This document shows positions 24,072 through 36,274 of a stretch of 64,000 bases of DNA, one piece after another. The position numbers and the translations under genes are program-made. The DNA comes from Methylobacterium sp. AMS5 (GTDB lineage Bacteria > Pseudomonadota > Alphaproteobacteria > Rhizobiales > Beijerinckiaceae): contig NZ_CP006992.1 in NCBI RefSeq assembly GCF_001542815.1, positions 1,098,001-1,162,000 on the forward strand. The letters are read 5' to 3'. The stretch's first letter is position 1. The number at the start of each line of letters is the position of its first letter. The notes under the pieces are model-generated. The model saw nothing but the letters and a program-made list of their open reading frames with translations. It made no database searches and was not told the DNA's origin.

Positions 24072-24395
24072 TCAAAACCGCGTGCGGGCAACGCGCCCAC
24101 GGCTGCCGGCCCCGAACACGCTCTCGATCACGGCCCAGGTCGAGGGGCTGAGACCGTGGTCGCTCCGCAGCCGGCGCGGGTCCGCCCGTTCGAGCCGGTC
24201 CATCTCGGCGGCGCATCTCCGGAGTGCGAACCCTGGCGTGCCGGTCATCGGCACGGAGCGCTGCCCCTTCGCCCCGTCCGCCTCGAAGCGCAGGCAGGCC
24301 GAGAGATCGTCCTTCAGATCGTCGAACGGGGCCGCCTCGGCACCGGCGGAGAGGGTCACGAGCAGGGGGATGAGGAGAGCGGTACGAAGGAACAT
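24072..24395 (-). CDS. Small secreted protein of unknown function
   Basis: Read from ATG 24395 the product has 107 residues with a clear signal peptide (MFLRTALLIPLLVTLSAGAEAA). The mature part is charged and contains two Cys (SACLRFEADG and ALRRCAAEMD) that could pair in the periplasm. No family is recognised. It is the last gene of the reverse-strand cluster downstream of the Rieske-like gene, after a gap of 106 bases, and may be co-transcribed. The 13-base gap to the convergent oxidoreductase end leaves no room for a terminator. Confidence 0.6.
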   Translation of the reverse strand: MFLRTALLIPLLVTLSAGAEAAPFDDLKDDLSACLRFEADGAKGQRSVPMTGTPGFALRRCAAEMDRLERADPRRLRSDHGLSPSTWAVIESVFGAGSRGRVARTRF

Positions 24396-24501
24396 CAAGG
24401 CGCTCCGGTCACGGTCGGCTGACGACAACGCATGGGCCGGCGATTCGCCGCACGTGAGAGGCCGCACTTTGGGAGACCGGTTCGGCGGCGGCGCCGCACG
24501 C

Positions 24502-24807
24502 CTACGCCACGGCCGGGGCTCCACTCGCCGGTCCGCGCCGGAACAGGAAGACCTGACGCCCCTCCCCCGCCAGCGCGGCGGCGCCCTGGCGGGTGCAGAT
24601 CCAGTCGCGCACCATCGCGGCGGCAACGGGCGAGACCGCCGGCTTCCACAGCCAGATGTCGCGGGCCTCGTCGATCCCGTGCTCGTGAAACAGGGCGGCG
24701 GACGCATCCTCGGCCACGCCCACCGACCAGGCGGAGAAATCGGCGCCGAACTCCTTCACGTAGCTGATGAACTCGAACTTGATCTGCTGCACGCTGTAGG
24801 CGGTCAT
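24502..24807 (-). CDS. Conserved small protein of unknown function
   Basis: The 101-residue protein has no signal peptide or membrane helix. A central block IKFEFISYVKEFGADFSAWSV is followed by GVAEDASAALFHEHGID, then a Gly-rich C-terminus (GEGRQVFLFRRGP). The W-x-VG-x-A-x-D pattern resembles a widespread small conserved hypothetical family, but I cannot name it. It starts 10 bases after the Sel1 gene, so it is very likely part of that operon. Confidence 0.6.
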   Translation of the reverse strand: MTAYSVQQIKFEFISYVKEFGADFSAWSVGVAEDASAALFHEHGIDEARDIWLWKPAVSPVAAAMVRDWICTRQGAAALAGEGRQVFLFRRGPASGAPAVA

Positions 24808-24817
24808 CGGATGCCCC

Positions 24818-25507
24818 TCACGCGGGAATCGGCGCGATGCGGCCGGGCTCCGTGCGGCGGCCCTGCGCCCGGGCGGCGCCCTCGCGCTTCTCCTCGGCCG
24901 ACATCTCCTTGCAGATCACCTCAAGCGCGTTCAGCGCCGTGCCGACCCCGTGCCCGGCAGCAAGCGAGAGCCAGGCGAAGGCTTCGACGCGGTCGCGCTC
25001 CACCCCGATCCCCTGGGCGTAGAGATGGCCGAGTCGGGCCTGGGACGGGTAGTGCCCGGCCTGCGCCGCGCTTCGGTAGAGGTCGGCGGCGCGGGCGGGG
25101 TCGGCGGGCAGGCCGTCGCCTTTCGCCAGCAGGGTGGCGAGGTTGTAGGCCGCCATCACGTCGCCGCTCGCCGCCGCCCGTTCCAGCCAGCGGGCGCCCT
25201 CGGCCCGGTCCTGCGCCACGCCCTGGCCCATCGCCAGCATCGCCCCGACATTGGTCGCGGCCGGGCCGTGGCCCTGCTCGGCGGCGCGGCGATACCATTC
25301 GAAAGCCTGCGTCAGCGAGGCGGGCACGCCGGCCCCGCCGGCATGGAGCGCACCGAGCCACGCTTGCGCCTCCGGGTCGCCCGCCTCGGCGAGCGGCCGG
25401 AACACGGCGAGCGCCCGGTCGTAGGCGCCGGACTGGAAGGCGGCGACGCCCTCAGCGAGGACGGGCGGCGCAAGGGTCTGGACGGCAAGGGGCACAGCAA
25501 AGCTCAT
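24818..25507 (-). CDS. Sel1-like repeat (tetratricopeptide) protein
   Basis: The protein of about 229 residues holds four to five Sel1 repeats from about residue 40 to 190, each with the pattern A-x2-LG-x-L-(5-7)-G-V-x-(6)-A-x2-W-(4)-AA-x-QG. Examples are AFEWYRRAAEQGHGPAATNV and ADLYRSAAQAGHYPSQARLG. Such solenoids act as adaptors for protein complexes. Starts at 25525, 25513 and 25507 are all in frame; ATG 25507 has GGGAG six bases away and is preferred. The Rieske-like gene stop overlaps the 25525 ATG, so the two genes are coupled. A hydrophobic N-terminus may be a weak signal peptide. Confidence 0.85.
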   Translation of the reverse strand: MSFAVPLAVQTLAPPVLAEGVAAFQSGAYDRALAVFRPLAEAGDPEAQAWLGALHAGGAGVPASLTQAFEWYRRAAEQGHGPAATNVGAMLAMGQGVAQDRAEGARWLERAAASGDVMAAYNLATLLAKGDGLPADPARAADLYRSAAQAGHYPSQARLGHLYAQGIGVERDRVEAFAWLSLAAGHGVGTALNALEVICKEMSAEEKREGAARAQGRRTEPGRIAPIPA

Positions 25508-25524
25508 CGACATCTCCCGAGACA

Positions 25525-26616
25525 TCAGCAGCCGCGGCCCTGGGCCGTGGCGTAGAGGGGTTGGCTGTCCGTGGCGGCGGGCCGCGCCCGCACGCGGGCG
25601 GCGATGTTTTGCTGGAGCCAGAGACCGGCGGCTTTGGTCGGCAGGGCCTCGCCGGCGTCCGGACGCGAGAGCGCCGCCTGCGCGGTAACGGCCGGCGCCA
25701 TCCGGGCGGCGATCTCGGCGAGCCATGCATCCCATGAGGCTTCAAGGTCGGGCGCCGCCCTCCCCTTCGGACCGAGCAGCCCGATCCGCAGCAGCGTCCG
25801 GCCCAACGCCGTCGGCTGCAGCATCACGGCGCAGGTCTCACCCCGCGCCTCGATCAGGACGAGGTTGGGGAAGTGGGCGGCAATGGCAGCGGCCTCTCCG
25901 GTCGCAAGCCGCCCGGTCAGGTGCAGGCTGTCCGGCGCTTCCGCGAACCGGTCGCCCTCGGCCAGCGCCTGCGCCGCGAGCTTCCAATTGGCGGCGAACT
26001 CCGCCCGCCGGGTCTCGCCGGTCAGCGCGGCCAGCCCCTCGGGTGGCGCTTCGGGCGCTGCGGCAGCGTGATCGAGATTGATCCGCAGCATTGGCCCCCA
26101 GGCGCGGGCGGCGACCGGCAGCAGACGCTCCGGGCGCAGGCCGAGATACTGGTGCATCGCCGGGGTCGGCCCCTCGGTCCCCGCCGGAAGCACGGCGCCG
26201 TCGCGGCTGTAGCCGCAGGCGGTGAAGGAGCAGCGGGTCTTGGTGCCGGTTCGGCATTGCAGGGGCACCGCGCGGCAGCCGCCGTGCTGGGCCTTGTTGA
26301 AGCGTCCGACGAGACCGCCGTCGCGCGTGCGCTGGACATGGAGGCCGTGATGGCCGGCCGTGAAGGGCAGGAGGTCGTCGGGCGCCGGGATCTCGGCGCC
26401 GAGGCCGATCGCGAGCCAGGAGCGGGTCCAGACCGCGTCGTCCTCCAGTTCGGCGAAGGCGAGCGCCCGGTAGGCGGCCGGCGGCAGAAGGCGCGGCGCG
26501 GCGGGGTCGAGGCTGCCGGCGAAGAAGGCCGGGTCGGCGAGGTCGAGCCCCTCGGCGCGGTGGCCGAGATCGGGGCGGTCCGGCACGAAGCCGGCGGACG
26601 CGGCGGCGAGGGCCAT
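25525..26616 (-). CDS. Rieske ring-hydroxylating oxygenase homologue with lost metal ligands
   Basis: The 363-residue protein follows the alpha-subunit layout of Rieske oxygenases: an N-terminal YRALAFAELEDDAVWTRSW segment, a Rieske-like domain (about 75-150), then the catalytic helix region NWKLAAQALAEGDRFAEAPD. The cluster motif is altered. Where C-x-H is expected the protein has NKAQHGGC (Ala for Cys), and where C-x2-H is expected it has CSFTACG (Thr for His). The catalytic iron site, normally His-x4-His after NWK, lacks both His. It keeps four Cys in 30 residues, which could bind another metal. It looks like a pseudo-enzyme kept with a Sel1 protein and small partners in one operon. Confidence 0.65.
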   Translation of the reverse strand: MALAAASAGFVPDRPDLGHRAEGLDLADPAFFAGSLDPAAPRLLPPAAYRALAFAELEDDAVWTRSWLAIGLGAEIPAPDDLLPFTAGHHGLHVQRTRDGGLVGRFNKAQHGGCRAVPLQCRTGTKTRCSFTACGYSRDGAVLPAGTEGPTPAMHQYLGLRPERLLPVAARAWGPMLRINLDHAAAAPEAPPEGLAALTGETRRAEFAANWKLAAQALAEGDRFAEAPDSLHLTGRLATGEAAAIAAHFPNLVLIEARGETCAVMLQPTALGRTLLRIGLLGPKGRAAPDLEASWDAWLAEIAARMAPAVTAQAALSRPDAGEALPTKAAGLWLQQNIAARVRARPAATDSQPLYATAQGRGC

Positions 26617-26649: not shown

Positions 26650-26844
26650 TCATGTGAGCCAGCGCCTGGTCATGCCGAGGGTGACCATGACGAGGTCGTT
26701 AGCCGCCCGCTTATCGTAGCGGGTGGCAGTGCGGCGGTACTGCTTGAATCGGTTAATCAGTTGCTCGACCCGATTGCGCTCACGGTGGACGGCCTTGTCG
26801 GGCTGGCGCAGCTGGTCCTTTTGGGTGGGGATCAGCGCGCGCCA
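26650..26844 (-). pseudogene. IS5-family transposase remnant (C-terminal end)
   Basis: The reverse strand encodes RALIPTQKDQLRQPDKAVHR and then NRVEQLINRFKQYRRTATRY, DKRAAND and VMVTLGMTRRWL. This is the C-terminus of IS5/IS427-group DDE transposases, with the catalytic Glu in the NRVEQ motif. The catalytic Asp-bearing two thirds is missing and the frame loses homology upstream of about 26844. It is a scar rather than a working element. It marks the boundary between the Rieske-like operon and the AT-richer stretch before the dimethylformamidase cassette. Confidence 0.75.
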
Positions 26845-26963
26845 AGGCACCATCGCGTTTGGACAACGCGTCAACGAACTGCTCGAGAAGGACATCGCGC
26901 TCATCGAGGCAACGAGGAAATCCCAGACATAGTAACGCCCTCGCGAGGTAGACGTCGGAGCGG

Positions 26964-27347
26964 TCAGTAGTTCTGCAGCTCCGCCTCAACGGCCAGCCTC
27001 AAATCATCCACCGAAGGCGTGACCCCTTTGCCTGCCGGCGTAAAGAGTACGCCTGGCAAGACACCATCCAGTTTCAGTTTAGGCAACAGCACCTCCATGA
27101 ATTCAACCAAATCGATCGAGCGCGGCTCATATCCGGCCCACTCGTTGACAGCACAAACCTGCGCGTATTCCTTGGCAGGCCATAGTGGAAAGACTGGCGC
27201 CCCCTCATCTGCCGCTGCAAGAGCCCATTCCTCTTGATACAGCCCCCAGACCTCTTCCCAGTCAACAATGATTTTGATGAAGTGTTCGAAGCGCTTGATA
27301 TCCGGCAATGCAAATATTGCTTCAATTTTCTTCGGACTCACTTTCAT
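26964..27347 (-). CDS. DUF2750 family protein
   Basis: The 127-residue protein has the DUF2750 pattern: FEHFIKIIVDWEEVWGLYQE, WALAAADEGAPVFPLWPAKE, YAQVCAV, EWAGYEPRSIDLVEFME and a C-terminal LRLAVEAELQNY. The function of the family is unknown; members are often found in accessory DNA beside toxin or immunity genes. ATG 27347 has GGGAG eight bases upstream; a GTG at 27356 is less likely. The base composition is visibly lower in GC than its neighbours, which suggests recent transfer. It lies between an IS5 scar and the dmf genes. Confidence 0.8.
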   Translation of the reverse strand: MKVSPKKIEAIFALPDIKRFEHFIKIIVDWEEVWGLYQEEWALAAADEGAPVFPLWPAKEYAQVCAVNEWAGYEPRSIDLVEFMEVLLPKLKLDGVLPGVLFTPAGKGVTPSVDDLRLAVEAELQNY

Positions 27348-27841
27348 GAATTGCACTCCCTCAGGCCACGGCCGCCAGGCACTTGCTCGATCGAACTCGC
27401 CATACTTGCGCCACGAGTGATGCAGGTCTCAATTTTGCAAATTCGAGTGACTGCAGTTGTGACCCTGCCCTGCCTCTCGACACACTCGCGGACAAGATCC
27501 ATGCCTGGAGGATTACGATTTTTTGAAAGTTAGCCCCCCCGTCGATTAATCACAAATTCTGCTTGACCACGCCGCGAGCAGCGAACTCAAATTGTCATCA
27601 TTTGCAATCCCGCGCCAGAGCCCCACCCGACCTGACTACATCAGGTCGGCGTCTCTATGTCTTTGTCTCGAAGCGCATTCTTTCGACGAACCGGTTTCTA
27701 CTTCGTCGCCATGCGCTCCGAGCCGTAAAGGGACCGGTGGCAGCGCACGGGGGGCTGACGGCGCTGCCACCGGGGCTCCGCCCGAGGAAGGCGAGGACGG
27801 AGCGTCGAAGCGGTCCCCGCCATGGCGGGGACCAACAGGTC
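27348..27841. other. AT-richer spacer between DUF2750 gene and dmfA2
   Basis: This stretch of nearly 500 bases holds no convincing gene. Its left two thirds are low in GC, like the DUF2750 gene. The right third carries two hairpins near the end of dmfA2: a 13-bp stem with arms 27734-27746 and 27761-27773, and the palindrome listed separately at 27812-27833. The composition break near 27720 may be the edge of the acquired piece. Confidence 0.5.
27812..27833 (-). terminator. Palindrome downstream of dmfA2, probable terminator
   Basis: A perfect 22-base palindrome (GGTCCCCGCCA and its complement) begins eight bases past the dmfA2 stop on the reverse strand. A second 13-bp stem lies 40-80 bases further on. 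T runs are short, so termination may need Rho. Confidence 0.5.
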
Positions 27842-31292: not shown

Positions 31293-31991
31293 TCAGATCG
31301 TCATGTGCCGCTCGATCAGTTCGTCGGTCATCTCGCCGATCGGTCCGCGGGCGACGATGCGGCCGTTCTCCATCATCAGGAAGGCGTCGCCGAGCTTGCG
31401 CGCGACCTTGATGTGCTGCTCGGTGAGGATCAGCGTGATGCCGAACTCCTTGTTGAGCCGCCCCAGCGTTTGGCCGATCTCGGCGACGATATTGGGCTGG
31501 ATGCCCTCGGTCGGCTCGTCGAGGAGCAGGATGCGCGGGTTGGTGGCGAGCGCCCGGGCGATGGCGAGCTGCTGCTGCTGCCCGCCCGAGAGCAGGCCGG
31601 CCTTCCGGTGCAGGTTCTGCGCGAGATAGGGGAACAGGGTGAGGCAGAGCTCCGGCACGTCCTGGCGCCCGTCGGTGCGGGCGAAGGTGCCGAGCAGGAT
31701 GTTCTCCTTGACCGTGAAGTGCGGCAGGATCTGGCGCCCCTGCGGGATGTAGCCGAGGCCGTACTTGGCGCGCACATGCGTCGGCGCCTTGGTGATGGCG
31801 TCGCCCGCGATCCGGATCTCGCCGGAGGTGCGGTCGGTCAGGCCCATGATGGTGCGAAGCAGCGTGGTCTTGCCCACCCCGTTGCGCCCGAGCACGCACA
31901 GGCACTGCCCCTCGGGCAGGCCGAGGCCGATCTCCTTCAAGATCGGCGTCTTGCCGTAATAGGAGGTCACGCGGTCGAGATCGAGCAGCAT
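31293..31991 (-). CDS. urtE: Urea/short-chain amide ABC transporter ATPase UrtE
   Basis: The 232-residue LivF-type ATPase has Walker A GRNGVGKTT, Q-loop YIPQGRQILPHFTV, signature LLSGGQQQQLAIARAL, Walker B ILLLDEPTEGIQPN and switch His in LTEQHIKVA. The IQPN and GRQILPHFTV wording is the UrtE/FmdF subtype rather than branched-chain amino acid LivF. It starts three bases after urtD ends and is the last gene of a five-gene operon in standard urt order. Given the neighbouring dimethylformamidase the transporter probably imports formamides or urea; the ligand is inferred. Confidence 0.88.
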   Translation of the reverse strand: MLLDLDRVTSYYGKTPILKEIGLGLPEGQCLCVLGRNGVGKTTLLRTIMGLTDRTSGEIRIAGDAITKAPTHVRAKYGLGYIPQGRQILPHFTVKENILLGTFARTDGRQDVPELCLTLFPYLAQNLHRKAGLLSGGQQQQLAIARALATNPRILLLDEPTEGIQPNIVAEIGQTLGRLNKEFGITLILTEQHIKVARKLGDAFLMMENGRIVARGPIGEMTDELIERHMTI

Positions 31992-31993
31992 CG

Positions 31994-32734
<741 letters not shown>

Positions 32735-32745
32735 CATCCCCTCCC

Positions 32746-33867
32746 TTACTCGCCCGCCGCCGGGGCACCGGAGATGGCGTGCGGCAGGTCGGGCCGCGCG
32801 TGCTTGCCGGGCTGGCGCGCGAGCGCGCCGAGCACCTTCTCGAGGAGGCCCGCCAGCCCCTTGGGCAGGAAGCGCACGACGACGATGAAGAAGGCGCCGA
32901 GCATCAAGAGCCAAGTCGCCAGGAACTGGTCGCCGAGATAGCTCTGGCCGCCCTGGATCAGGAAGGCGCCGAGGATCGCGCCGAGCAGCGACAGGCGCCC
33001 GCCGATCCCGGCCCAGATCACCGTGCCGATGCTGAAGGTGGTGTCGAGCTGAGCCGGCGAGACGTACTGGATCAGCATCACCCAGAGGCAGCCGGCGAGC
33101 GCGGCGATGAAGCCGGAGATCGCGTAGATGCAGGTCTCGTAAAGGGCGACGTTGTAGCCGAGGAAGCGCACCCGCTCGGGGTCGCCGCGCAGGGCCTGGA
33201 TGACGAGGCCGAACTTGCTCTGCGTCAGCAGCTTTGCGCCGACCGTGACGGCGATGAGCCCCCCGCAGACGATCCAGTAGGCGGTCGGGCCGTAGGGGTC
33301 GATGTCGGTGCCGAACAGGCTGAGCGGTGCGGGCGGCGAGATGCCGTTGGCGCCGTTGGTGTAGGGCTGCATATCGAGGATCAGCGTGGCGAAGGCCGAG
33401 AGCATCGCCAGCGACATGATCGCGAAGAATGGCCCCGAGACGCGGGCGCGGAACATCAGAGTGCCGAACACGACGTAGAACAGCGTCGGCACGATCAGCG
33501 CCAGCAGGATGCCGCCGCCGGTGCTCCAGAACGGCTGCCAGAACCAGGGCAGGTGCTCCAGGCTGTTGTTGAGCATGAAGGGCGGGATCGGGTTCGACTC
33601 CGGATCCTGCGACTGCATCTGCATGGTCATGGCCATGCCGTAGGCAGCGAGCCCGAAGGCGATGCCCTGGCCGAGATTGAGGATGCCGCCGAAGCCCCAG
33701 CACAGGCTGATCGAGAGGGCGAGCATTCCGTAGATGCCGTAGACGGCGAACTGGTTGAGCAGGAAGCCGTCGGAGACGAAGGCCGGGATCAGGGCGATGC
33801 TGACGAAGAACAGTCCGTAGACCGCCCATTGCGCCGGCTTGCTGTGATAGAGATTGCGCGTCGTCAT
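32746..33867 (-). CDS. urtC: Urea/short-chain amide ABC transporter permease UrtC
   Basis: This 373-residue LivM-type permease has about ten hydrophobic segments. Conserved pieces are LSISLCWGFGGILNLGQGIA, where the G-x-LNLGQ motif is usual, MSLAMLSAFATLILDMQP, the cytoplasmic loop QALRGDPERVRFLGYN and the C-terminal VRFLPKGLAGLLEKV. A UrtC-type insertion (SQDPESNPIPPFMLNNSLEH) lies in a periplasmic loop. The tail after LLEK is charged and Ala/Pro-rich. It follows urtB by 68 bases and works as a heterodimer with UrtB. Confidence 0.9.
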   Translation of the reverse strand: MTTRNLYHSKPAQWAVYGLFFVSIALIPAFVSDGFLLNQFAVYGIYGMLALSISLCWGFGGILNLGQGIAFGLAAYGMAMTMQMQSQDPESNPIPPFMLNNSLEHLPWFWQPFWSTGGGILLALIVPTLFYVVFGTLMFRARVSGPFFAIMSLAMLSAFATLILDMQPYTNGANGISPPAPLSLFGTDIDPYGPTAYWIVCGGLIAVTVGAKLLTQSKFGLVIQALRGDPERVRFLGYNVALYETCIYAISGFIAALAGCLWVMLIQYVSPAQLDTTFSIGTVIWAGIGGRLSLLGAILGAFLIQGGQSYLGDQFLATWLLMLGAFFIVVVRFLPKGLAGLLEKVLGALARQPGKHARPDLPHAISGAPAAGE

Positions 33868-33935: not shown

Positions 33936-34820
33936 TCATCGGCGGCCCTTGGCGACGGCGAAGAGGCCGCGTGGGCGGAAGCGCAGGAACACGACGATCA
34001 GCACGTAGAGGAGGAAGCGCGCGAAGGTGTCGTTGGTGACGAAGGCGAAGACCGACTGGAGTTCGCCCGTCAGCCCCGCTGCCGCGACGCTGCCCATCAG
34101 CGTGCCGCCACCGACCACCACGACGAGGAAGGCCTGCACCACATAGGCCGTGCCCATGGTCGGCAGCACGATCGCCAGCACGCCGAACAGCGAGCCCGCG
34201 ATGCCGGCAAGCCCCGCACCGAGGGCGAAGGTCGTCATGTAGACCCGGTCGGCATTGATGCCGAAGGAGGCGGCCATCTCCTTGTTCTGCATCACCGCCC
34301 GCACCTGCATGCCGAAGCGGGTGCGGTAGAACAGGTAGGCGGTCGCGGCGACGATGAGCGCGGTGATGCCGAGCACCACGAGGCGGAAGGCCGACAGGCT
34401 GGCAAAGCCCAATTCGACGTTGCTCTGGAAGATCTCCGGCACGGCGATGTATTTCGGGTCGGAGCCGAAGATCAGCCGCACGCCCTGCATCAGCACGAGC
34501 GAGACGCCCCAGGTGGCGAGCAACGTGTCGAGCGGGCGGTTGTAGAGGTAGCGGATCAACCCGCGCTCGATCACGAGCCCGATCAGCCCGACCACGACGA
34601 ACGAGGCGGGCAGGCAGAGCAGGAACGGCAGGCCGAGGGAGGATTGCAGGGCGTAGGAGGTGTAGGCGCCCAGCATGATGAACTCGCCATGGGCCATGTT
34701 GATGACCCCGACGGTGCCGTAGATGATCGTCAGCCCGATCGCGGCGATGAGCCAGATGCTGGCGATGCTGAGCCCCAGCACCAGGGCGTTGGCAAAGGGT
34801 GCGATGTCGAGGGACGTCAC
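33936..34820 (-). CDS. urtB: Urea/short-chain amide ABC transporter permease UrtB
   Basis: The 294-residue LivH-type permease has around eight helices. Recognisable parts are IYGTVGVINMAHGEFIMLGA (the NMAHGEF motif), ATWGVSLVLMQGVRLIFGSD, MQVRAVMQNKEMAASFGINA and VVVGGGTLMGSVAAAGLTGE. The start is GTG 34820 with GGAGG six bases before it. It follows urtA by 66 bases. Shorter than many UrtB proteins, which carry an extra N-terminal periplasmic domain of about 200 residues; that domain is absent here, so this copy is closer to FmdE-like amide permeases. Confidence 0.88.
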   Translation of the reverse strand: MTSLDIAPFANALVLGLSIASIWLIAAIGLTIIYGTVGVINMAHGEFIMLGAYTSYALQSSLGLPFLLCLPASFVVVGLIGLVIERGLIRYLYNRPLDTLLATWGVSLVLMQGVRLIFGSDPKYIAVPEIFQSNVELGFASLSAFRLVVLGITALIVAATAYLFYRTRFGMQVRAVMQNKEMAASFGINADRVYMTTFALGAGLAGIAGSLFGVLAIVLPTMGTAYVVQAFLVVVVGGGTLMGSVAAAGLTGELQSVFAFVTNDTFARFLLYVLIVVFLRFRPRGLFAVAKGRR

Positions 34821-34886: not shown

Positions 34887-36197
34887 TCAGATGACGTTCT
34901 TGCGGCTCTTGCCGTCGGGGGCGACGAGACCCGCGGCGGTGCATTTCCCGGCATTCGGGTAGATCGAGTACGGATCGGGCGCGACGTGCTCTTTGGCTTC
35001 CGAGACGATCTTGAAGCTGCCATCCGCCTGACACTGGCCGATCTTCGGCTTGAGCCAGGAATTGAAGTTGTCGCCGTCGATCCAGATCAGGCCTTCCGGC
35101 GAGATGTCGTCCTCGACCCGCACGCCGCCGCTGACGTCGCGGATCATGCGCGAGGTGACCTCCTCGACATTGCCGGTCTTCTTGATCGCGGCCTCAAGGC
35201 CGGCCTTGAACACGTAGGCCGAGAGATAGGTCTCTTCCATATTGTAATGGGTGGAGCCGTTCTTGCCGTACTTGCTCTTGAGGAAGTTCTCGACGAACTT
35301 CTGGTTGGTCGGGTTGTCGAGCGACTGAAAATAGGGTGCCGACAGGAAGTGCCCGGCGCCGAATTCCGGCCCCATCGCCTTGGTCTCGATCTCACCCGTG
35401 GTGAGCGAGGCGATCGGCATGGAATCGACCTTGAAGCCTTCCTGCTTGAACTGCTTGTGGAAGGCGATGTCGGAGGCGCCGACGACGGTCGAGAAGATGA
35501 AGTTCGGCTTGGCATCGCGGATCTTGCCGAGGACAGGGCCGAACTCCGAGCTGCCGAGTGGGATGTACTCCTCGCCCACCAGCTCGCCACCGGCCTCTTG
35601 GAGCCAGATCTTGGCGTTCTTGTTCGACTCCTTCGGCCACACGTAGTTCGAGCCGACGAAGAAGACCTTCTTGCCGAAGTTCTTGACCATGTACGGGATC
35701 AGGTCCTTCGAGTGCTGATTGGCCAGCGGACCCGTGCAGATCGTGTTCTGGGTGCATTCGGCACCCTCGTAGCAGGTCGGATAGTAGAGCAGGCTGTTCT
35801 GCGACATCACCACCGGCAGGATCGCCTTGCGGCTCGCCGAGGTGTAGCAGCCGAACAGCGCGATCACCTTCTCGCGGATGATGAGTTCCTTGGCCTTCTC
35901 CGAGTAGACGTTGAAGTCCGACTTGGCATCGACGATCACCGGCTGGATCGGATGCCCGGCGATCCCGCCGTTCTTGTTGATCTCGTCGATGGCGTACTGC
36001 ATCACCAGGGTCGAGTCCTCCTCCGGAACCGCGAGCTGGCCGGACAGGGAAAACAGGAGGCCGACCTTGATCGGCTCGCCCTTCTTCAAGGTGGCGCCCC
36101 AGGCTTCGCGGGCCGTCGGCAGCCAAAGGTGCGGGGCGGCAATCGCTGCGGCGGCGAGCGAAGACTGCTTTAATAGCTTCCGACGTGTCAGATCCAT
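34887..36197 (-). CDS. urtA: Urea/short-chain amide ABC transporter substrate-binding protein
   Basis: Read from ATG 36197 the protein has 436 residues. It has a twin-arginine signal (MDLTRRKLLKQSSLAAAAIA) and a type I periplasmic binding fold of the UrtA/AmiC/FmdD class. Typical blocks are IKVGLLFSLSGQLAVPEEDS, ALFGCYTSASRKAILPVVMS, LLYYPTCYEGAECTQNTICT and FFVGSNYVWPKESNKNAKIW. In Methylophilus the related FmdD binds short amides and urea. Export in folded form through Tat is common for this class. AAGGGG precedes the start. The gene is divergent from the porin, with 550 bases between them that carry repeated dyads. Confidence 0.9.
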   Translation of the reverse strand: MDLTRRKLLKQSSLAAAAIAAPHLWLPTAREAWGATLKKGEPIKVGLLFSLSGQLAVPEEDSTLVMQYAIDEINKNGGIAGHPIQPVIVDAKSDFNVYSEKAKELIIREKVIALFGCYTSASRKAILPVVMSQNSLLYYPTCYEGAECTQNTICTGPLANQHSKDLIPYMVKNFGKKVFFVGSNYVWPKESNKNAKIWLQEAGGELVGEEYIPLGSSEFGPVLGKIRDAKPNFIFSTVVGASDIAFHKQFKQEGFKVDSMPIASLTTGEIETKAMGPEFGAGHFLSAPYFQSLDNPTNQKFVENFLKSKYGKNGSTHYNMEETYLSAYVFKAGLEAAIKKTGNVEEVTSRMIRDVSGGVRVEDDISPEGLIWIDGDNFNSWLKPKIGQCQADGSFKIVSEAKEHVAPDPYSIYPNAGKCTAAGLVAPDGKSRKNVI

Positions 36198-36274
36198 CTC
36201 GTTCCCCTTAAATATTGTGCAGTTGCCTCGTTTTTGAGCGGACACTTGTCTCAACGCTCAATAAGTAAAAATTA

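Follow-up and report, generated by a model that had tools for sequence, protein, structure and literature searches.

Why would a bacterium keep a Rieske-type oxygenase that has lost the ligands of both its metal centers? The question is raised by a 363-residue protein, here called A363, that is encoded in a 64,000-nucleotide stretch of the Methylobacterium sp. AMS5 genome (contig NZ_CP006992.1, positions 1,098,001 to 1,162,000; hereafter, the window). In many bacteria, A363 travels with an importer and a little-studied iron-type amidase related to dimethylformamidase (DMFase), and sequence comparison makes it a probable helper in getting this enzyme to work. A helper role is probable because the oxygenase chemistry is lost, the metal-type residues are strictly kept, and the protein travels with the amidase and its importer. 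A literature search with little reach into subscription journals found no description of the A363–amidase linkage, which does not by itself prove novelty.

Metal-type residues of the A363 fold

A363 retains the Rieske and catalytic-domain fold and aligns with Rieske oxygenases (profile match to 1uli_A at E 9.2e-13). With the alpha subunits of the Rieske nonheme iron oxygenases (biphenyl dioxygenase, 1uli; CntA, 6y8s) it shares the two-domain fold, sequence similarity in the N-terminal half, and the NWK element, of which N is present in 77, and W and K in all, of 82 aligned orthologues (80 loci from a genome scan, the window, and a copy on the plasmid pAMI5). It differs from them in the replacement of the first Cys and second His of the cluster motif, the loss of the iron triad, an invariant set of one His and four Cys, and an amidohydrolase as partner. 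The original prediction had placed Ala at the first Cys and Thr at the second His; alignment confirms both (A109 and T132) and shows the first His and second Cys kept as H111 and C129. The catalytic iron His after NWK are missing, as had also been proposed: the 82 orthologues have no His or Asp pair conserved after W211-K212. The motif D-x2-H-x4-H after NWK, which we take to be the catalytic iron triad motif of Rieske oxygenases, occurred within 40 residues after WK in no orthologue and in one (P0105) of 120 listed homologues, the best 120 of 430 with E ≤ 0.001.

H111 and the four remaining Cys (C114, C121, C129, and C134), located in the loops of the old Rieske cluster, form the most conserved stretch of A363. 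All five are present in 82/82 orthologues, at a median pairwise identity of 0.42 and a minimum of 0.27, and the persistence of the Cys is as the original prediction had it. Only H90 and H93 join them among His and Cys columns conserved above 95%, and these seven are invariant. The pattern H-x2-C-x6-C-x7-C-x4-C was found in 120/120 of the homologues listed. A normal Rieske motif in close homologues had been named as the observation that would count against an altered site; the pattern C-x-H-x(15-17)-C-x2-H was found in 0/120 of those listed and in 0/82 orthologues. As a control, 23 loci giving weak hits in the same family search, which we read as ordinary oxygenase relatives, contained the canonical pattern somewhere in six frames in 19 cases and the new motif in none. 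A109 and T132 are each conserved in 81/82 orthologues; the pAMI5 copy has V109 and L132, yet retains H111 and the four Cys. Variation thus occurs at the lost Rieske positions and is absent from the new set.

The genome scan, which found 102 relatives and kept the best 80, used peptide patterns drawn from the motif, so its loci alone cannot prove that the motif is invariant. We therefore examined stretches chosen through the neighboring amidase gene, namely those of all 21 other genomes of an order-level set with an amidase large subunit at least 74% identical. The motif was present in 21/21, as were the two downstream genes, which encode a Sel1-repeat protein and a 101-residue protein (p101). 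Fourteen of these stretches contain DNA that the 80 loci also cover, and seven are new. The pAMI5 copy was likewise found through the amidase.

These results bear on several accounts of the protein. Gene decay is ruled out because the motif is invariant despite a median identity of 42%. That A363 is an ordinary Rieske oxygenase, with ligands misaligned or mutated in this strain, is hardly credible: several homologues carry the database name "ring-hydroxylating oxygenase subunit alpha," but the absence of the Rieske pattern from listed homologues and orthologues rules out a local mutation within the sampled family. To describe the protein as metal-poor, as was first done, is misleading, since four Cys and one His form its most conserved stretch, and we consider it likely that this site binds a metal or cluster. 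That A363 works as a scaffold or regulator without metal, its Cys forming only a zinc-like structural knuckle or disulfides, is improbable, and disulfides are disfavored in a reducing cytosol. That account has a precedent in TEF5/PSB33, a photosystem II membrane protein of plants and algae that, in the available part of its description, has an assembly role and a Rieske-like domain without canonical ligands (PMC12164590); whereas that protein lacks the ligand residues, A363 retains five candidates that are invariant across its divergent family. An enzyme with a new cofactor, acting on the compound that the amidase consumes or produces, would give the retained His and Cys a use, yet we think it unlikely, given the few invariant polar residues in the catalytic-domain half of the orthologue alignment and the missing iron triad, with D-x2-H-x4-H confined to the single homologue named above.

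A363 accompanies one clade of DMFase-like amidases

The large subunit of the partner amidase (DmfA2-like) matches that of Paracoccus DMFase (6lvb_A) at E 2.5e-154 and is 37 to 39% identical to the pAMI2 and DM1 enzymes. In the available part of its report, DMFase binds iron through Y399, Y440, and E521 and uses H519 as the catalytic His (PMC7686228). The counterparts Y408, Y448, E530, and H528 are kept in 80/80 amidases of the clade, which therefore share the 2-Tyr-1-carboxylate ligands of DMFase (DmfA1–DmfA2). The clade differs from DMFase in its linked putative helper genes, in Asp at the position of N547 near the active site (80/80), and in additional Cys. In the large subunit, C582 and C746 are invariant (79/79 loci and pAMI5), and in the small subunit (DmfA1-like), C22, C37, and C76 occur in 80/80; the canonical enzymes used for comparison have none of these Cys. 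The small subunit matches 6lvb_B weakly (E 0.0045 with a single sequence and 0.051 with a profile).

Of the 397 genomes in the order-level set, 75 yielded a DmfA2 homologue (E ≤ 1e-20), with at least 74% identity in 22 and no more than 47% in the remaining 53. An A363 profile gave 22 strong matches (E ≤ 3.8e-102) in exactly the 22 genomes with the clade amidase, adjoining that gene, and none in the 53 others. Weak hits in three further genomes (4.6e-26 to 5.9e-22), two with distant DmfA2 homologues, were read as ordinary oxygenases and left out of the counts. A phylum-level set of 398 genomes held the clade in two, both of the window's own genus and both with A363, and A363 was absent from the nine genomes of this set with only distant DmfA2 homologues. 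When all candidates were scored in 18 genomes of one family, nine had both the clade amidase and A363 and nine had neither; further DmfA2 copies (38–44% identical) in five of these genomes had no A363 alongside, A363 adjoining only the first kind. The search for the converse case, a clade amidase lacking A363, thus covered an order-level, a phylum-level, and a single-family sample.

Plasmids of a single strain give the same picture. The dmf stretch of Paracoccus aminophilus pAMI2 lacks A363 by annotation and by tblastn, and tblastn likewise did not find it in the fetched 11 to 14 kb stretches of the canonical dmf loci (L112, from pAMI2, and L113) or of L114. Plasmid pAMI5 (L111) of the same strain encodes the clade small and large subunits (the latter 70% identical), p101, and an A363 annotated "biphenyl 2,3-dioxygenase"; genes for a two-component system and a UrtA-like protein lie next to the module. 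In every genome sampled, these comparisons of sequence and gene order show A363 accompanying this amidase clade only, encoded by the gene that comes next in the module.

Operon composition and importer

Four open reading frames of 363, 229, 101, and 107 codons lie on the minus strand where the original prediction placed them. By gene order and family matches, the first belongs to a gene set that reaches past 24072..26616 to about 36254 in the window, and the A363 gene is the tail of a predicted amide/urea-type operon comprising a UrtABCDE-like importer, the small and large DMFase-like subunits, A363, Sel1, and p101 (Table 1).

Table 1. Features of the A363 locus, in window coordinates
Feature	Position	Strand	Evidence or remark
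A363, 363 aa	25525..26616	minus	Rieske-oxygenase fold, without Rieske or catalytic iron ligands
Alternative ligand motif, A363 codons 109-134 (A109, H111, C114, C121, C129, T132, C134)	26215..26292	minus	
Sel1-repeat protein, 229 aa	24818..25507	minus	PF08238 E 4e-34; homologue in 81/81 loci
p101, small alpha/beta protein	24502..24807	minus	Homologue in 80/81 loci
107-aa protein	24072..24395	minus	Secretion-signal-like start (judged by eye); lineage-specific
DMFase-like large subunit (DmfA2-like), 810 aa	27842..30274	minus	6lvb_A E 2.5e-154; PF20254 286.6 bits
DMFase-like small subunit (DmfA1-like), 146 aa	30401..30841	minus	Weak 6lvb_B match; position; C22, C37, C76 in 80/80
UrtE-like ATPase	31293..31991	minus	TIGR03410 294.8 bits (cut-off 285.8)
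UrtD-like ATPase	31994..32737	minus	TIGR03411 308.3 bits (cut-off 304.1)
UrtC-like permease	32746..33867	minus	TIGR03408 303.8 bits (cut-off 296.2)
UrtB-like permease	33936..34820	minus	TIGR03409 314.8 bits (cut-off 250.3)
UrtA-like substrate-binding protein, divergent	34887..36254	minus	TIGR03407 341.6 bits, under cut-off 492.75
Insertion between DmfA2-like gene and A363	26650..27356	minus	Outside the system
Transposase remnant (probable) in insertion	26650-26904	minus	DDE_Tnp_1_2 24.9 bits, under cut-off 29.2
DUF2750 gene in insertion	26964-27356	minus	DUF2750 87.3 bits (cut-off 27)

The A363 stop reads TGATG, and because its ATG is in frame with Sel1 (an in-frame upstream start overlaps the A363 stop), translational coupling of the two genes is plausible. 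Gaps of 10 nt and 106 nt separate Sel1 from the p101 gene and the p101 gene from that for the 107-aa protein. The large-subunit gene lies 1228 nt from A363 in the window, compared with 152 nt in locus L031.

Mapping of 81 loci (the 80 fetched loci and the window) located the DmfA2-like gene, A363, and Sel1 in 81, p101 in 80, and the DmfA1-like gene in 79, the missing genes falling at contig ends (p101 in L062; the small subunit in L069 and L072). Among mapped genes the DmfA2-like gene directly precedes A363 in 81/81 loci, followed by the order A363-Sel1-p101 or A363-p101-Sel1. Of the three companions in the four-gene unit first proposed, only Sel1 and p101 are conserved; the 107-aa protein, with a tblastn match in 4/81 loci including the window, probably stands outside the system. 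The p101 family numbers 340 homologues at E ≤ 0.001, and the members scanned, among the 120 listed, had no Pfam match. Its AlphaFold2 (AF2) model is confident (mean predicted local distance difference test score, pLDDT, 92.1), yet gave no confident fold or family match; a GIY-YIG fold was considered for it by eye. In Stutzerimonas (L067, 12191-14465) an aliphatic amidase and a ClpB-type AAA ATPase follow the module. In 23/81 loci (L037-L042, L046, L047, L049, L050, L052-L059, L061-L064, and L091) the fetched stretch also contains a NarL-type response regulator, 27 to 34% identical to the pAMI5 one, that may regulate the system.

Against the curated urea-transport models, UrtB, UrtC, UrtD, and UrtE all score over their cut-offs, and UrtA falls under its own (TIGR03407). 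UrtA- to UrtE-like genes occur in 65 to 74 of the 81 loci, counts that include L094, L100, L104, L105, and L110, where the importer genes are only 35 to 44% identical, L086, with one UrtB-like hit at 30%, and loci truncated at contig ends. The fetched pAMI5 stretch has a UrtA-like gene, no match to UrtB to UrtE, and an AmiS/UreI channel directly after p101 (L111, 12470-13331). Urease (UreC) is present in 20/81 loci and an aliphatic amidase in 6/81, the Stutzerimonas amidase scoring over its cut-off. The urea-type importer, the channel, the nearby urease, and the aliphatic amidase point to a small amide or urea-like compound as the predicted substrate. Dimethylformamide (DMF) itself seems unlikely; in the available part of the plasmid study, no link has been made between the pAMI5 dmf-like locus and DMF use, and the strain deprived of pAMI2 cannot use DMF (PMC4543880). 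Beyond the A363 gene set, the window also encodes a cytochrome P450 (18654-20021; PF00067, 229.3 bits).

Proposed role of A363

The association described above makes it very probable that A363 is accessory to the amidase. To compare its divergence with that of known accessory proteins, we took as a yardstick the 18 loci in which urease genes are present as well. Median identities were 0.80 for DmfA2, 0.75 for DmfA1, 0.42 for A363, 0.53 for Sel1, and 0.46 for p101; for urease they were 0.82 (UreC), 0.68 (UreAB), 0.70 (UreG), 0.47 (UreE), 0.40 (UreF), and 0.36 (UreD). The importer genes, found in 13 to 16 of these loci, gave 0.68 to 0.75. A363, Sel1, and p101 lie far below the amidase subunits and thus diverge like UreD, UreE, and UreF. 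The urea-type importer and the sometimes adjacent urease add to the likeness with the UreDEFG system, although no sequence relation was seen and a GTPase of the UreG kind is absent from the conserved genes of the module.

Given its UreD/E/F-like divergence, its strict linkage, and its invariant His and Cys, A363 is best explained as a factor that carries a metal or cluster and matures or activates a distinct iron amidohydrolase, a proposal that we hold with about even confidence. A Rieske-oxygenase fold would have been repurposed as an accessory protein of this DMFase-like clade, with H111 and the four Cys holding a metal or iron-sulfur cluster; A363, together with p101 and with Sel1 as adaptor, would load or activate the amidase as UreD, UreE, and UreF serve urease; and a small amide or urea-like compound, imported and hydrolyzed by the products of the operon, would serve as a source of nitrogen (or of one-carbon units). 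A more specific and more tentative form of the proposal would make A363 a dedicated metallochaperone or cluster donor that uses a new His-Cys4 ligand set and works with Sel1 and p101, as a maturation apparatus of three proteins, for a widespread class of 2-Tyr-1-carboxylate iron amidohydrolases that may hold a second metal or cluster on their extra Cys.

It is possible, if rather doubtful, that A363 instead stays permanently in the amidase complex as a structural or electron-transfer subunit whose His-Cys4 site holds a cluster or structural metal within the holoenzyme. The one-to-one genetic linkage, the extra Cys of both amidase subunits, and the presence of a Sel1 protein, a family that acts as adaptors, would all suit such a complex, but hydrolysis requires no electrons, and the median identity of A363 in the yardstick loci is about half that of the amidase subunits. 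On the choice between a maturation or activation role and that of a holoenzyme subunit, we consider the former to be on balanced ground.

Several observations weigh against the proposed role. UreG, itself a maturation GTPase, breaks the pattern at 0.70, and fast divergence also fits a peripheral subunit. AF2 confidence is low at A363 residues 111 to 140 (block means 56–66), and the linkage counts of the 397-genome set come from scoring at most two DmfA2 and five A363 candidates per genome. Sel1 was not found by tblastn in the 20-kb pAMI5 stretch and is therefore not strictly part of the unit. Columns at least 97% conserved make up 54 of 146 in DmfA1 and 417 of 810 in DmfA2, so the invariant Cys of the clade are only suggestive. 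Finally, the available part of the DMFase report describes canonical enzyme expressed in Escherichia coli with kinetics similar to the native enzyme (PMC7686228). DMFase as such thus needs no helper, and any need would be specific to the A363-linked clade, which would fit its extra Cys and altered active site.

The scaffold or new-cofactor role first proposed for A363 was in the right area, given the fixed partners and the absence of the old ligands, but missed the DMFase-like operon with its urea-type importer. The present analysis corrects the annotation of homologues called "ring-hydroxylating oxygenase subunit alpha" that lack the ligands of an oxygenase. The operon probably makes a small amide or urea-like compound available as a nitrogen source to many methylotrophs and other Proteobacteria. 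If the proposed role is true, a fold known from oxygenases has come to assist a hydrolase, its Rieske loops bear a new arrangement of metal ligands, and one would have to ask how a class of iron amidohydrolases acquires its metal.

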